This document shows positions 896-10,917 of a stretch of 32,078 bases of DNA, in pieces (within the stretch, counting starts at the first letter, position 1; every line of letters begins with the position of its first letter). A program made the translations under genes and the position numbers. The notes under the pieces are model-generated. The model was given only the letters and a program-made list of their open reading frames with translations, was not told where the DNA came from and ran no database searches. The DNA is from a virus: positions 1-32,078 of the IMG/VR virus record IMGVR_UViG_3300025168_000359; one strand, written 5' to 3'.

Positions 896-1927
896 ATGAA
901 TAAAGCTTTAATTATTGGAGGTTCAGGCCAAGATGGTTTTTACCTTAGTGGATTTCTTTTAGAGCAAGGCTATCATGTTCATTCTCTTGTTCGTAGATCG
1001 TCAGTAAATAACTTTGCAAGAATAGATCAACTAGAAAGTAAAGTAAATTTCCATACATCTTATGGAGATTTGACTGACGCTTCAGGATTACTTAGGGTAA
1101 TTAAAGAAGTACAGCCTACAGAAATTTATAACTTAGGTGCACAGTCTGATGTAAGAATATCATTTGATATACCAGAGTATACAGGAGATGTAGATGGACT
1201 AGGTACTACCCGTTTGCTTGAGTGTATTAGAACTTTAGGGATGATTGATACCTGTAAGTTCTATCAAGCATCTACATCAGAACTGTATGGTAAGGCACAA
1301 GAAGTACCACAGACAGAGACTACTCCCTTCTACCCTCGCAGTCCCTATGGAATAGCTAAACAGTATAGTTATTGGATGGTAAAGAATTACCGTGAAGCTT
1401 ATGGATTGTATGGTTGTAATGGTATTCTATTTAACCATGAGTCTCCAATGAGAGGAGATAATTTTGTTACGCAGAAGATCGTTAAGGGTATCATAGATAT
1501 CATGTATGGTAAGAAAGAATGTCTTACAGTAGGTAACCTTAATGCCCAACGTGATTGGGGACATGCTGCTGATTATGTAGAAGGCATGTGGCTTATGATG
1601 CAACAAGATAAACCTGACGATTATATTCTTGCTACTGGTAAGGTGCATTCAATTAAAGAATTAATTGAGTATGGATTTAATAAATATCTTGGTGTTCAAT
1701 TACAGTGGGAAGAGGAAGGAGTTAATGAAATAGGGTTTGACATTAAAGAAAACTCAGAGTATAAAGGTATTCTAGTTAATTGTAGTCCTGAGTTTTATCG
1801 TCCAACAGAAGTTGATATATTGCTGGGTGATCCTACTAAGGCAGAGAAAGAACTAGGATGGGAAAGGGAATATTCTTTCCACGATTTGATTGATGAAATG
1901 TTTGAGTATCAACTAGAAAGGAATTAA
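896..1927 (+). CDS. gmd: GDP-mannose 4,6-dehydratase
   Basis: This enzyme converts GDP-D-mannose to GDP-4-keto-6-deoxymannose, the precursor of GDP-fucose, GDP-rhamnose and GDP-perosamine. The 343-residue protein is an extended short-chain dehydrogenase of the usual GMD length. It has a Rossmann NADP-binding start with GGSGQDG at residues 8-14, the RRSS stretch at 33-36, the catalytic TSE at 127-129, and Tyr151/Lys155 in a YGIAK motif. The FVTQKI and RDWGHAADYVEGMW segments are typical of GMD. No reductase or aminotransferase that would complete a deoxysugar is visible next to it, so the host or another phage gene must take over. With the glycosyltransferases at 6878-9899 it points to modification of a surface or virion glycan. 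An AGGAA site lies about 8 nt upstream. The family assignment is secure; the role in infection is inferred. Confidence 0.92.
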   Translation: MNKALIIGGSGQDGFYLSGFLLEQGYHVHSLVRRSSVNNFARIDQLESKVNFHTSYGDLTDASGLLRVIKEVQPTEIYNLGAQSDVRISFDIPEYTGDVDGLGTTRLLECIRTLGMIDTCKFYQASTSELYGKAQEVPQTETTPFYPRSPYGIAKQYSYWMVKNYREAYGLYGCNGILFNHESPMRGDNFVTQKIVKGIIDIMYGKKECLTVGNLNAQRDWGHAADYVEGMWLMMQQDKPDDYILATGKVHSIKELIEYGFNKYLGVQLQWEEEGVNEIGFDIKENSEYKGILVNCSPEFYRPTEVDILLGDPTKAEKELGWEREYSFHDLIDEMFEYQLERN

Positions 1928-4033: not shown

Positions 4034-5719
4034 ATGCCCACCTTTCGCTCTAATGAAAACCCTATGTTCCGTTCTAAGTTTAGTGAGGACATATTCAAAC
4101 ATAAGTATGCTCATCATGGTTGTGAGACATGGGCAAGCCTAGCGTCTGTACTGGTAGAAGATGTTTGTTCTCCTCAGTTAAAGCAGGATGAGATAGATCA
4201 GCTTAAAGAATATATCACTGATCTAAAATTTATTCCCGGTGGCAGGTACTTATACTATGCGGGTAGACCTAACAAGTTCTTTAATAATTGTTATCTTCTG
4301 AAGGCAGAGGAAGATACACGTGAAGATTGGGCAGACCTGTCATGGAAGAGTGAGTCATGTCTGATGACAGGTGGTGGTATTGGTGTAGATTATTCTGTAT
4401 ACCGTGAGGAAGGTAGGGTGTTGTCAGGTACGGGTGGTCTTTCCTCTGGTCCTATACCTAAGATGCTAATGATCAACGAAATTGGCCGAAGGGTCATGCA
4501 GGGTGGTAGTCGTAGGTCAGCTATCTATGCCAGTATGAATTGGAAACATGCAGACATTGATAAGTTTCTTACTAGTAAAAACTGGTATGAGATGCCTGTT
4601 GGTAGCACAGGTTTTACTATTGGTCAGGTTAAGGAACAAGACTTTAACTTTATTGCTCCATTAGATATGACTAACATTAGTGTTAACTATGATACAGAGT
4701 GGTTACTTAATTATTGGGAGACAGGAGATGTTGGGACTACTTTTAAGCAGAATGTACAACAAGCCTTACGTACCGCTGAACCGGGATTTTCTTTTAACTT
4801 CTTTGATAAAGAAAATGAAACGCTACGTAATGCATGTACTGAAGTTACTTCGGAAAATGATTCAGATGTTTGTAACTTAGGTTCAGTCAACCTTGGAAGG
4901 GTAGATACTCTAAAAGAGTTTAAAGATATTGTTCACTTAGCTACTAAGTTTCTTATGTGTGGTACTCTTAAAGCGAAGCTACCTTATGATAAAGTTTATA
5001 AAGTACGAGAGAAGAATCGTAGGCTTGGTCTAGGTCTAATGGGTATGCATGAGTGGTTGATTAAGCGAGGTTCTAAGTATGAAGTTACTGATGAACTACA
5101 CCAATGGTTAGGAGTTTACAAAGGAGTGACTGATGATACTTCTAAAAAGACTGCTGATGAAATGAATATCAGTAGTCCAGTAGCTAACCGTGCCATTGCA
5201 CCTACAGGAAGCATTGGTATTCTTGCAGGTACAAGCACAGGAGTAGAACCAATCTTTGCTGTATCATATAAGCGTAGGTATTTAAAGGGTGGTACACGCT
5301 GGCACTACCAGTATGTAGTAGATAGTGCAGCGCAGGAGTTGATTGATCTTTATGATACTAAACCAGATAACATTGAGTCTGCTCTTGATCTTGCAGAGGA
5401 TTACAAAAGACGTATGAAGTTCCAAGCTGACGTTCAAGACTATGTAGATATGTCCATCTCCTCTACTATTAATCTACCGTCATGGGGAAGTAAGCTGAAC
5501 AATGAAGATACTGTTGTGGACTTTACTAATACTCTTGCCTCTTACGCACATCGCTTACGTGGCTTTACTGTATACCCTGATTCATGTCGTGGTGGGCAAC
5601 CACTAACATCTGTACCTTATAAGGAAGCTGTTGCTAAGTTAGGCGAAGAGTTTGAAGAAGGTCTTGAGACACATGATATTTGTGATATCACAGGACATGG
5701 TGGGAGTTGTGGAGTATAA
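4034..5719 (+). CDS. Class II (adenosylcobalamin-dependent) ribonucleoside reductase
   Basis: This enzyme reduces ribonucleotides to deoxyribonucleotides for phage DNA synthesis. The 561-aa protein has the expected catalytic residues: Cys86 in FNNCYLL and Cys280 in VCNLGSVNL as the redox pair, and Asn266, Cys268 and Glu270 in NACTE for the thiyl radical site. It also has the APTGSIGILAGTSTGVEP nucleotide-phosphate loop (389-406) and a C-terminal cysteine pair (550 and 559) for re-reduction. No R2 radical-generating subunit or glycyl-radical site is present. With the NrdJ-like sequence this points to class II, meaning it would need B12 from the host. It is compact compared with bacterial NrdJ. 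A good GGAG site lies 8 nt upstream, and the stop codon overlaps the next start. Confidence 0.88.
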   Translation: MPTFRSNENPMFRSKFSEDIFKHKYAHHGCETWASLASVLVEDVCSPQLKQDEIDQLKEYITDLKFIPGGRYLYYAGRPNKFFNNCYLLKAEEDTREDWADLSWKSESCLMTGGGIGVDYSVYREEGRVLSGTGGLSSGPIPKMLMINEIGRRVMQGGSRRSAIYASMNWKHADIDKFLTSKNWYEMPVGSTGFTIGQVKEQDFNFIAPLDMTNISVNYDTEWLLNYWETGDVGTTFKQNVQQALRTAEPGFSFNFFDKENETLRNACTEVTSENDSDVCNLGSVNLGRVDTLKEFKDIVHLATKFLMCGTLKAKLPYDKVYKVREKNRRLGLGLMGMHEWLIKRGSKYEVTDELHQWLGVYKGVTDDTSKKTADEMNISSPVANRAIAPTGSIGILAGTSTGVEPIFAVSYKRRYLKGGTRWHYQYVVDSAAQELIDLYDTKPDNIESALDLAEDYKRRMKFQADVQDYVDMSISSTINLPSWGSKLNNEDTVVDFTNTLASYAHRLRGFTVYPDSCRGGQPLTSVPYKEAVAKLGEEFEEGLETHDICDITGHGGSCGV

Positions 5720-6877: not shown

Positions 6878-7615
6878 ATGAGTAGTATACCTACTGTATA
6901 TATAGGTTATGATCCTAAAGAAAAAGTTTACTGTGACGTTCTTGAGTACAGTATAAATAAACATGCCTCTTCTCCTGTTAACATTGTTAGACTAAAGCAG
7001 GATAGTGTTAGGCGTACAGGTTTGTACTGGAGAACTATGATAATTAAAGATGGTCAGCAGGTAGATTCATTTGATGAAAAACCTTTCTCAACTGAGTTTA
7101 GTTTTACACGTTTTCTTGTACCCTTTCTAAATGTACATCAAGGACATGCTTTATTTATGGACTGTGATATGTACATGAGAGATGATATAAATAAACTATT
7201 TAATCTCTTCTCTTATAGAGATTTTTCTGTAGCTTGTGTACATCATAAGTACCAGCCTAATGACAAATATAAAATGGATAACAAATTACAACAAACTTAT
7301 TTTAGAAAGAACTGGTCAAGCTTTATGTTATTTAATTGTGGTAATCCAGAACTAAATGAACTAACTATATCTGATGTAAACACTAATAGCGGAGGATGGT
7401 TACACGGTATGCATTGGGCAGAAAAAGTATCTAGCATATCTGAAGAATGGAACTGGCTTGATGGTCATTCGCATGAAGACGTTGATCCTAAGTGTGTGCA
7501 TTTTACAACAGGTGGACCAATGTTCAGGAACTGGGAAGGCAAGAGAGAAATAGATAATCACTATGCAAAAGAGTGGAACAAACTATATAAGGAAATGAGT
7601 GAACAATATGACTAA
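6878..7615 (+). CDS. Putative glycosyltransferase with DxD motif (GT-A fold)
   Basis: The 245-aa protein begins with a TVYIGYDPKE strand-turn and has a DCD metal-binding motif at residues 95-97 within HALFMDCDMYM. This is the arrangement of GT8-like, nucleotide-sugar-dependent enzymes. A second half with NCGNPELNEL and a final HFTTGGPMFRNW segment is also typical of GT-A enzymes that end in a metal-binding histidine (His208 is a candidate). The acceptor and sugar are unknown. It starts 20 nt after the hsp20 terminator with only a weak AGGA at about 14 nt, so it depends on read-through or an unseen promoter. It overlaps the following gene by 8 nt, making the two translationally coupled. Confidence 0.75.
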   Translation: MSSIPTVYIGYDPKEKVYCDVLEYSINKHASSPVNIVRLKQDSVRRTGLYWRTMIIKDGQQVDSFDEKPFSTEFSFTRFLVPFLNVHQGHALFMDCDMYMRDDINKLFNLFSYRDFSVACVHHKYQPNDKYKMDNKLQQTYFRKNWSSFMLFNCGNPELNELTISDVNTNSGGWLHGMHWAEKVSSISEEWNWLDGHSHEDVDPKCVHFTTGGPMFRNWEGKREIDNHYAKEWNKLYKEMSEQYD

Positions 7616-9899
7616 TTTTGTAACATCGTTTAGTGGACACAACTACAACACTTATGCTAAGAGTATGCTTGAGTCAGTAGTAGAACACTGGGAAGAAGAT
7701 TTAAAACTAGTAGCTTACTATGATTCATGTAGTGAAGAACAGATTGAAGAGTTTCCTAAGTCACCTCTTATTGAATACCGAGACTTAGATTTAGTAGAGG
7801 ATCGTACTAATTATCTTGAGCGTATGAAGCACCATGATGGTACAGAGAACGGTCAGATGGAATATAACTGGCGTATGGATGCACTGAAGTGGTGTCATAA
7901 AGTCTATGCCTTGACTGATTACTTCATGGAGATTTCTGAAGAAGAAGTTAAGGGCGGTTGGTTAATCTGGATGGATGCAGATGTCATTACTCATAACAAA
8001 CTTAATGAAGATACTCTCTTTAAAGCCTTTCCTAAAGACTCAGAGTTAGTACATCTAGGTAGAAAAGATATTGACTTTAGTGAGACAGGCTTCATTGGTT
8101 TTAATCTTGACTATCAAATGCCTCACTACTTTCTTGCAGACATTCGAGGATGCTATGACATTGGAGAAGTAATAGCATACCGTGAATGGACTGATGCGTT
8201 CATTATGACTAGGTTCATTAACATCTATGCAGCACATGGTATGAAGGTACATAACCTTACACCAGAAGCTAAAGGACTAGCTGTCTTTGAACAGTCTAAC
8301 CTCAATGAATTTATGATGCACTACAAAGGTAATCGTAAGAACGAAGTCATGTCTGAGCAAGGCTTTTCACAGGACGTAGTACTGCCTCGTTATGGACAGC
8401 TTGCTACTATGGTACGTGCTTATGAACCTGATCGGATTGTAGAGATTGGTACATGGAATGGTGGCAGGGCAATTGAGATGGCACTTGCTTCCTTTGAAAA
8501 GAGGGATGACTTTCACTACATTGGTTTTGATTTGTTTGAAGAAGCTACTAATGAAACCGATAAGCTTGAGTTAAATATTAAACAACACAATACTTACAAG
8601 GCAGTCTTTGATCGACTCACTGAGTTTGAAGAGAAGATGAAAGAGAATGGTAAAACATTTACCTTTAAACTACATAAGGGTAACTCCCGAGACACACTCA
8701 AGAAAGCTAAGAAAGAATTAAAGAAAGTTCCTTTTGCTTTTATTGATGGTGGTCATAGTGAAGATACAATCAAAAGTGATTACGATAATCTAAAACATAT
8801 CCCTGTCATTGTCTTCGATGACTTCTATTCTAAGGATGAGAATGGACATACTGTATCTCAAGAAAAGGTAGGAGTTAATAAGCTTATCCGTGACGAGATG
8901 GAAGGTAAGCGTATGCATGTGCTTCCATCTCAAGATAAAGTATCTGGTGGTGGTCTTGTACACCTAGCTGTACTGCTTAACAATGCAGACTTACCAGACA
9001 TTCCTATTGAACTAAGACGTATCCCTATTATCGTACATCCTAAAGACTGTGTACCTAAAGATGATATTGTTGAGAACATTAATGTTAATCTAAATCTTAT
9101 AGACAGTTGGGATAGTGTACAACAATACTACCCACATTCAGAAGCTGCTATCATTGTCTCTGGTGGATCGTCTATTGACTTTGATAAGCTGAAAGAACTA
9201 CAAGCAGAAACAAATGGTAAGATAATCTGTGTTAAGCATAGCTATCCTAAACTACTAGAGGCTGGCATAAAGCCTTGGGGTTGTGTTATACTTGATCCTC
9301 GTACTATTGAGGGTGAGAGTACACATGGTATAGTTCGTAAAAGTTTGTTTGAAACTATTGATCCTTCAACTAAATTCTTTATAGCATCTATGACAGAACC
9401 TTCTGTTACTAAATATATTTTAGAACGAACATCTAATGTATATGGATGGCACGCTTACTCTGAAGCTATTAAAAACAGAGTGAATAACAAAGAGGACTAT
9501 CCTGAAGAGGAACAGATACAGATAAGTGATGACGTAACCTTTGTTACTGGTGGTACTTGTGCAGCTATGCGAGCGATTGGTATGCTTCATATCTTTGGGT
9601 TTAGAAACTTTCATCTCTTTGGTTTTGATTGTTCTGTCCCTGAAGTATCTGAAGAAGAACAAAAAGAAACTCTCTTTGATGGTAAAACTAAGTACATGAA
9701 AGTAGAGATTAATGAAAAAGAATTTTGGACTACAGGAGAACTGTTAGCAATGGCACAAGATTGTGAACAGTTGTTTGATGCACCTCAAATAGATATGGGT
9801 GTAGAGTTTTATACTAAGTATGATACACTAGCTAACCAAGTCTATCTAACATCTCGACATGGTAATAAAACTTACTACGATAATACATTTAACTCTTAA
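7608..9899 (+). CDS. Tri-modular protein: glycosyltransferase, SAM methyltransferase, DUF115/MptE-like domain
   Basis: I use the ATG at 7608, which overlaps the previous stop (ATGACTAA); a GTG at 7599 is possible. The 763-aa protein reads as three units. Residues 1-235 form a GT-A-like glycosyltransferase with a DAD motif (123-125, in WMDADVITH). Residues about 255-455 form a class I methyltransferase of the Methyltransf_24 type, with VEIGTWNGG (278-286), FIDGGHSED (378-386) and VIVFDDF. Residues about 510-735 resemble DUF115/Maf-type proteins: AAIIVSGGSSIDFDKL (513-528), GIKPWGCVILDPRT and HLFGFDCS. DUF115 proteins include Maf factors that attach nonulosonic acids to flagellin. A role in building or attaching a methylated sugar is the natural inference. 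The target could be host envelope glycans or phage proteins. The fusion as a whole is unusual. Confidence 0.72.
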   Translation: MTNFVTSFSGHNYNTYAKSMLESVVEHWEEDLKLVAYYDSCSEEQIEEFPKSPLIEYRDLDLVEDRTNYLERMKHHDGTENGQMEYNWRMDALKWCHKVYALTDYFMEISEEEVKGGWLIWMDADVITHNKLNEDTLFKAFPKDSELVHLGRKDIDFSETGFIGFNLDYQMPHYFLADIRGCYDIGEVIAYREWTDAFIMTRFINIYAAHGMKVHNLTPEAKGLAVFEQSNLNEFMMHYKGNRKNEVMSEQGFSQDVVLPRYGQLATMVRAYEPDRIVEIGTWNGGRAIEMALASFEKRDDFHYIGFDLFEEATNETDKLELNIKQHNTYKAVFDRLTEFEEKMKENGKTFTFKLHKGNSRDTLKKAKKELKKVPFAFIDGGHSEDTIKSDYDNLKHIPVIVFDDFYSKDENGHTVSQEKVGVNKLIRDEMEGKRMHVLPSQDKVSGGGLVHLAVLLNNADLPDIPIELRRIPIIVHPKDCVPKDDIVENINVNLNLIDSWDSVQQYYPHSEAAIIVSGGSSIDFDKLKELQAETNGKIICVKHSYPKLLEAGIKPWGCVILDPRTIEGESTHGIVRKSLFETIDPSTKFFIASMTEPSVTKYILERTSNVYGWHAYSEAIKNRVNNKEDYPEEEQIQISDDVTFVTGGTCAAMRAIGMLHIFGFRNFHLFGFDCSVPEVSEEEQKETLFDGKTKYMKVEINEKEFWTTGELLAMAQDCEQLFDAPQIDMGVEFYTKYDTLANQVYLTSRHGNKTYYDNTFNS

Positions 9900-10378: not shown

Positions 10379-10481
10379 TTGGTCATTCCCAATTCTAATC
10401 AGTGATGCTGACTCTCTCTCCAACGAAACTGCTAGACAAGTACTAAGCCATAATCTTACATGGGAAAAATTCTGTGACTAA
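10275..10481 (+). CDS. Rz1: Outer-membrane spanin lipoprotein, Rz1-like
   Basis: This 68-aa product overlaps the Rz-like gene by 104 nt in a different frame. It has a lysine-rich N terminus, a hydrophobic stretch LTSFLMVMFL, and a lipobox LSSC with Cys24 as the lipidated residue. The mature part carries a CSWSFPILIS segment and SNETARQVLSHNLTWEKFC, a pattern seen in Rz1-like proteins of alphaproteobacterial phages. The nested arrangement with an i-spanin gene makes the assignment convincing. The stop (TAA, 10479-10481) overlaps the GTG start of terS by 8 nt. Confidence 0.75.
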   Translation: MQRKEIKLKTKLTSFLMVMFLSSCGSVGGEAAFCSWSFPILISDADSLSNETARQVLSHNLTWEKFCD

Positions 10482-10917
10482 AGAATTAAATCTTAAACAA
10501 GAAAAGTTTTGCCAAGCATACGTCCTGTATAGGAATGCTACTGAGTCAGCTAAGATTGCTGGTTACTCTGATGTGTCTGCACATACACAAGGGCATAGGC
10601 TAGTACAGCGTAATGATATACAGGAAAGAATTGAAGAGTTAGAAAAAGAATTAGAAACTAATATTGATGTCATCACTGAGATTGAGAATCAATATACTTA
10701 TGCTAAAAATAATGGACATACCAACAGTGCAATTAAAGCTTTGGAAGTTTTGTCTAAGATTAGAACATCTAGAGATGACGAAGTTCCTAAATCAATTGTA
10801 GAATTAGAGGATGAGATAGTAAGGAGTTTAGAAATACTAGGTGAAGAAAGATCATCTAAGATTTTTCTACAATGTGACTGGTTTAAGGAAGAACAAGAAG
10901 AAATTGAAGCCGTATAA
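10474..10917 (+). CDS. terS: Terminase small subunit
   Basis: The protein recognises phage DNA and recruits the large terminase for packaging. The 147-aa sequence starts with a GTG inside the Rz1 gene. Residues 5-55 follow the Terminase_2 pattern: LNLKQEKFCQAYVLYRNAT, then AKIAGYSDVSAHTQGHRL, a helix-turn-helix, and IQERIEELEKEL. A helical oligomerisation region and an acidic C-terminal end (EEQEEIEAV) come next. In T7 the holin, small terminase and spanins are also adjacent, with the large terminase soon after. Here the large subunit is missing from this position, because the next gene is on the opposite strand. Confidence 0.85.
   Translation: MTKELNLKQEKFCQAYVLYRNATESAKIAGYSDVSAHTQGHRLVQRNDIQERIEELEKELETNIDVITEIENQYTYAKNNGHTNSAIKALEVLSKIRTSRDDEVPKSIVELEDEIVRSLEILGEERSSKIFLQCDWFKEEQEEIEAV

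Follow-up and report, generated by a model that had tools for sequence, protein, structure and literature searches.

The window analysed here, a stretch of 32,078 nucleotides comprising positions 1 to 32,078 of the IMG/VR virus record IMGVR_UViG_3300025168_000359, encodes on its + strand a three-module protein of 763 aa (7608..9899), in which a GT-A glycosyltransferase, an O-methyltransferase and a Maf-like transferase domain (D1, D2 and D3) follow one another in a single chain. We propose, with a probability of about 0.55, that this protein is a cytosolic glycan-assembly enzyme that acts together with the GT8-like enzyme encoded upstream, that its product is O-methylated, and that, most likely, a virion protein serves as the acceptor. 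Directly supported are the three enzyme-type folds, the invariant pairing with the GT8-like gene, the conserved DxD motif of D1, the conservation of D3 and the separable nature of the methylation module.

Translation of 7608-9899 yields a single open reading frame whose one stop is terminal; it contains every motif quoted in the preliminary description (DAD at residues 123-125, VEIGTWNGG at 278-286, FIDGGHSED at 378-386, VSGGSSIDF at 517-525 and FGFDCS at 671-676) and confirms all positions stated there. Only two domains of the window protein score above the curated Pfam cut-offs, Methyltransf_24 and PF01973, and residues 1-245 carry none. An AlphaFold2 model from 10 near-identical sequences was unusable (pLDDT 38.6) and was superseded by one built from 98 sequences, the other members being 40-89% identical to the window protein, with a mean pLDDT of 91 and a pTM of 0.56, so that the single domains are well defined and their mutual arrangement is not. 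A Foldseek search with the whole model, its rows given to domains by inference from molecule types and lengths, relates D1 to the GT-A domains of GT6 and GT8, D2 to O-methyltransferases (TomG and COMT among them), and the whole chain to the Maf structure 5mu5. The latter is also the top match in VIA-align (Z 19.4, 352 residues, model 254-752), spanning D2 and D3 with an rmsd of 15 that, given the model, we read as a two-domain hinge. A PDB search with the single protein sequence gave no match, and searches with profiles gave weak matches only, including 5mu5 at E 0.3 for D3. Domain search and whole-protein prediction thus returned three enzyme-type folds and not the unrelated folds that the preliminary description had allowed for. 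Because the Pfam matches exceed their cut-offs and relatives down to 40% identity keep both the open frame and the motifs, the pattern of modules goes beyond chance, and the claim that GT-A, methyltransferase and DUF115 domains occur in this order in one frame is borne out by Pfam, the structure model and the relatives.

These relatives come from eight scans of IMG/VR and one of GTDB, the best 80 matches of each scan being listed, and they number in the hundreds among the matches listed. The loci collected prior to the last scan include, among the matches listed, at least 202 distinct closed full-length proteins of 40-100% identity, 195 of them with the D1-D2-D3 architecture and seven with D1-D3. 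The fusion is therefore not rare, as calling it unusual would have implied; a further protein, A0A6J7X5Q0 (UniProt/BFVD), aligns over its full length at 30% identity. The same order is present in other viral contigs, and an assembly artefact is ruled out by its recurrence in 202 distinct full-length proteins. The carriers are uncultured, mostly marine tailed phages. GTDB returned a single match, in a Sneathiella MAG, on a contig that looks phage-like, and INPHARED contains no full-length relative, with tblastn of the protein finding only two D1 homologues there. Across the 202 proteins, 82 columns are at least 98.5% conserved (21 in D1, 11 in D2 and 50 in D3), making D3 the most conserved module. 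Compared with relatives that are 98% identical to it, one relative (L003:4301-6499) has two short in-frame gaps, one of about 11 residues near the N terminus and one of about 19 at 687-705.

D1 (7608..8342, +; residues 1 to about 245) is placed by the model, with a pLDDT mostly of 85-97 in the 98-sequence model and Foldseek matches to alpha-1,3-galactosyltransferase (GT6), LARGE1 and glycogenin (GT8). Its DAD (7974..7982, +), a DxD-type metal/nucleotide-sugar motif, lies directly C-terminal to strand 118-122 of the model, so that a GT-A fold and a DxD motif occur together. As modelled, D1 is a GT-A glycosyltransferase nearest to GT6 and GT8; the assignment rests on the structure model, Pfam giving D1 no above-cut-off match and no glycosyltransferase match, only DUF1647 at E 0.13, below cut-off. 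Of 201 relatives, 191 retain the DxD, and the other ten all read NTN. In the clade of L119 and L051 (7989-10334 in the latter), DAD has become NTN, the D2 metal site reads GNDN and D3 is still conserved; judged by these residues, both accessory active sites appear degraded. Free-standing homologues of D1 occur in the phages Mosig and MW202713.

D3 (8997..9896, +; residues about 464-763) belongs to PF01973, the MptE-like family formerly named DUF115, with a Pfam match at 488-678 of 61.3 bits (cut-off 34.6, E 1.3e-16), and the family is matched in all 17 relatives scanned. Its nearest solved fold is the flagellin glycosyltransferase Maf 5mu5, found with the whole-chain model in a match that spans D2 and D3; as regards the Maf C-terminal domain, the alignment stops at residue 502 of the 632-residue chain. 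Since PF01973 matches the Maf fold, the DUF115 domain, real as described, is on the model probably a second glycosyltransferase and not an accessory.

D2 (8343..8996, +; residues about 246-463) is a TylF/COMT-like SAM O-methyltransferase domain. Its Methyltransf_24 match covers 278-397 (37.2 bits against a cut-off of 26.3, E 6e-9) and includes the SAM-binding loop VEIGTWNGG (8439..8465, +), in which E279 and G281 are at least 98.5% conserved; Pfam match and loop together identify D2 as a class I SAM methyltransferase. In VIA-align, COMT, CalS11 and MycF match it with Z scores of about 15-17. The score for the TylF family PF05711, 18.2 bits, falls below the cut-off of 23, and D2, as modelled, would work like TylF without counting as a member of the family. 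One half of a putative metal site is contributed by D380 and H383 of FIDGGHSED (8739..8765, +), the second by D404-D405 (8817..8822, +). This quartet is intact in 127 of the 202 proteins, degenerate in 68 and deleted together with D2 in seven. On a tree built from the D1 and D3 columns, the intact or non-intact state of D2 changes nine times, at least seven of the changes being forced by well-supported branches, and deletion has two origins; some of the changes could be regains. The suggestion that the enzyme transfers and caps a sugar remains the best reading, but D2 has been inactivated or deleted in several lineages, and hence the capping step is optional.

In part of the family, the lost function seems to have been replaced. 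All 53 proteins whose D2 motif reads GDDN, GNDH or GNDN are directly followed by a gene for a free-standing methyltransferase of a Pfam family other than that of D2 (Methyltransf_23, best member E 3.8e-8). Among cases with enough downstream sequence, this gene follows none of the 108 proteins with intact D2 and none of the 18 other non-intact ones. The replacement cases are confined to one branch of 30 tree rows, which points to one event, and the replacement suggests that the methyl group on the product matters. In a separate case (L295:3591-5936), one in-frame stop within D2 parts D1-D2 from D3; a split of the gene is ruled out in favour of this single stop, which is either a nonsense mutation or a sequencing error.

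The GT8-like glycosyltransferase gene (6878..7615, +; 245 aa) is the conserved partner of the fusion. Its product matches PF01501 at E 0.0028, below cut-off, and has homologues in cultured phages. Because the ATG of the fusion at 7608 overlaps the end of this gene (stop at 7613-7615), the two are probably translationally coupled, to judge from the sequence. In a set of 105 distinct proteins, all 103 with upstream sequence have the GT8-like gene on that side (immediately adjacent in 90, within three ORFs in four, overlapping the fusion start in nine), and the other two contigs end there. The pairing is kept while the GDP-mannose 4,6-dehydratase (GMD), the 2OG oxygenase, HSP20 and the type of reductase vary among relatives. 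The reading of the fusion as one enzyme is to be amended here: the protein belongs to a conserved pair, with the GT8-like protein as the other member.

The remaining neighbourhood is looser. The terminase small subunit (10474..10917, +; phrog_51, E 4.9e-19) is the usual downstream landmark, seen in most relatives, and in the phage group of the window the gene pair sits beside it, outside the head/tail block, which counts against our proposal. GMD (896..1927, +; TIGR01472 above cut-off) is only loosely linked, being found in 11 of 35 related phage records; it is a possible source of donor sugar, and as an obligatory partner it is ruled out by this count. The ribonucleotide reductase gene of the window (4034-5719) is about 70% identical in DNA to those of roseophages CRP-3 and CRP-212, a hint, at the level of sequence, of an alphaproteobacterial host. 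Pelagiphage Mosig EXVC030M has adjacent homologues of D1 and the GT8-like protein beside two FkbM methyltransferases, with a sulfotransferase nearby, and in MW202713 the D1 homologue is flanked by a 'glycosyltransferase tibC' and a methyltransferase. Cyanophage S-SCSM2R (L400:4995-8520) carries a GT8-like homologue, two uncharacterised genes, KdsB, KdsA and then an amidinotransferase, an operon that, by its gene content, represents a possible phage pathway for a Kdo-type sugar.

Homologues of D3 occur in 78 ORFs outside the fusion family, 15 distinct ones standing alone. In 44 distinct closed proteins, the homologue is fused to the other methyltransferase family, the one otherwise encoded downstream, a convergence that we count in support of our proposal. 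In L442 it is fused to a sulfotransferase-like domain, and in L424, read from the sequence, it is joined to two GT-like stretches. The sulfotransferase-like part of the phage fusion (L442:320-1897) recurs at 38% identity next to a D3 homologue in a bacterium (L407:525-1223). Tblastn of D3 against 50,697 phage records gave no match, and we found nothing relevant in the literature on DUF115 or MptE-like domains in phages. Within three ORFs of 75 of the 78 homologues there are virion/structural or packaging genes; this adjacency is suggestive only, since structural genes abound in phage genomes and the count has no chance control. One locus (L417) has the order MCP-cluster protein (a relative of the major head protein), small ORF, D3, GT8-like, and another (L408) the order major head protein, virion structural protein, D3. 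The contig of the latter (G103 contig C88; also L411) is filed under an alphaproteobacterial genome, and its D3 gene is identical to that of an IMG/VR viral contig. In CcrColossus, a tail protein gene stands ahead of one for a PF01973-related 'sialyltransferase', and after two uncharacterised genes come a GT8-like gene and a methyltransferase, all within about 4 kb; the match of gp126 to PF01973 (E 1.5e-7) lies just below cut-off, and a profile comparison of D3 with this one sequence was not significant.

To account for these patterns, we propose that the GT8-like enzyme and D1 would add hexose-type residues from NDP-sugars, that D3 would extend the resulting short glycan by another residue, acting like Maf/sialyltransferase-like enzymes, and that D2 would O-methylate a sugar of the product, with donors drawn from the host or partly made through the phage GMD. 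The donor of D3 is plausibly a CMP-sugar such as CMP-Kdo, which a Clostridium Maf accepts (PMC11339370). It would be host-derived, because the phages have no recognisable CMP-sugar synthetase: PF02348 was absent from the 35 related phage records, its three matches all falling in the Sneathiella MAG. The acceptor, most likely a virion protein, is the weakest link of the proposal, and is favoured by the location of the D3 homologues and, by analogy, the precedent of mycobacteriophages.

In the main rival, the same assembly line would act on surface glycans of the host, either LPS/O-antigen or capsule, where it would alter the receptor and exclude other phages. We regard this as possible, at well under even odds. 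The presence of GMD in the window and in a minority of related records agrees with it, as do pelagiphage work in which phage glycosyltransferases are classed under lipopolysaccharide modification (PMC9599517) and, for the E. coli K15 capsule, a Maf-like ORF proposed to be the Kdo transferase (PMC7387560). However, most related records lack GMD, D3 homologues of other phages sit within virion gene blocks, and neither transport nor polymerase genes were recognised adjoining the pair. Slightly more tentative still is a specific form of the virion reading, in which a large group of uncultured phages would wear on capsid or tail a coat of a host-derived Kdo- or nonulosonate-type sugar, laid down by a Maf-like enzyme, optionally O-methylated and resembling the sugars of the host, with the Maf-like domain as a mobile core recombined with methyltransferase, sulfotransferase and GT modules.

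Phages also use glycosyltransferases on DNA, and a hypermodified base bearing sugar and methyl could be the product; the PHROG that matches D2 is labelled DNA methyltransferase, and a 2OG-Fe(II) oxygenase lies near the pair in the window. We consider this improbable, as many relatives have the pair but lack the oxygenase, the closest structures to D2 are small-molecule O-methyltransferases, and the flanking genes tested included no recognisable hydroxymethyl-nucleotide gene. Another reading would make D3, like archaeal MptE, from which PF01973 takes its name, a pterin diphosphokinase, and the fusion a metabolic enzyme unrelated to glycans. It is very improbable, given that the nearest solved fold is Maf and that several independent fusions join such domains to GT, methyltransferase and sulfotransferase partners.

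If glycan assembly on the virion is correct, a conserved gene pair serves glycan decoration in a widespread group of uncultured aquatic phages, and the methyl cap, with its natural losses and its replacement, parallels what is seen in the antigenic variants of chlorovirus A064R. This would offer an entry point to the role of virion sugars in ocean phages, and the natural fusions and splits form a set for dissecting Maf-like glycosyltransferases.

Among known systems, the full-length likeness is with A0A6J7X5Q0 of an uncultured Caudovirales phage, an uncharacterised protein annotated merely as a methyltransferase domain protein. The TylF, CalS11 and MycF sugar O-methyltransferases share the fold of D2 and may share its putative metal-binding residues, whereas the phage D2 lies inside a fusion and scores below the PF05711 cut-off. 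Maf flagellin glycosyltransferases share the Pfam family and fold of D3, the 5mu5 match extending over D2 as well, but the phage D3 shares its chain with a GT-A domain and with an O-methyltransferase whose metal site is putative, and has no flagellar context. In cluster O mycobacteriophages, an O-methyltransferase and three glycosyltransferases act on the capsid and tail tube (PMC11600133); an O-methyltransferase and several glycosyltransferases likewise share one cluster there, but as separate genes in phages of actinobacterial hosts, and the likeness drawn here is one of gene content. The nearest characterised analogue is A064R of chlorovirus PBCV-1, a single soluble viral protein of two GT domains and an O-methyltransferase that finishes the capsid glycan, with a methyl cap that is separable by mutation and lacking in natural variants (PMC9614988). 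The preliminary description knew of no characterised protein with the order found here, which stands insofar as A064R is GT-GT-MT and the phage protein GT-MT-PF01973, but A064R is a close logical precedent. It differs in that no PF01973 domain is reported there, leaving D3 without a counterpart, and in that its virus infects a eukaryotic alga. By analogy, then, the phage protein would resemble A064R in its logic, with a set of modules that is new.
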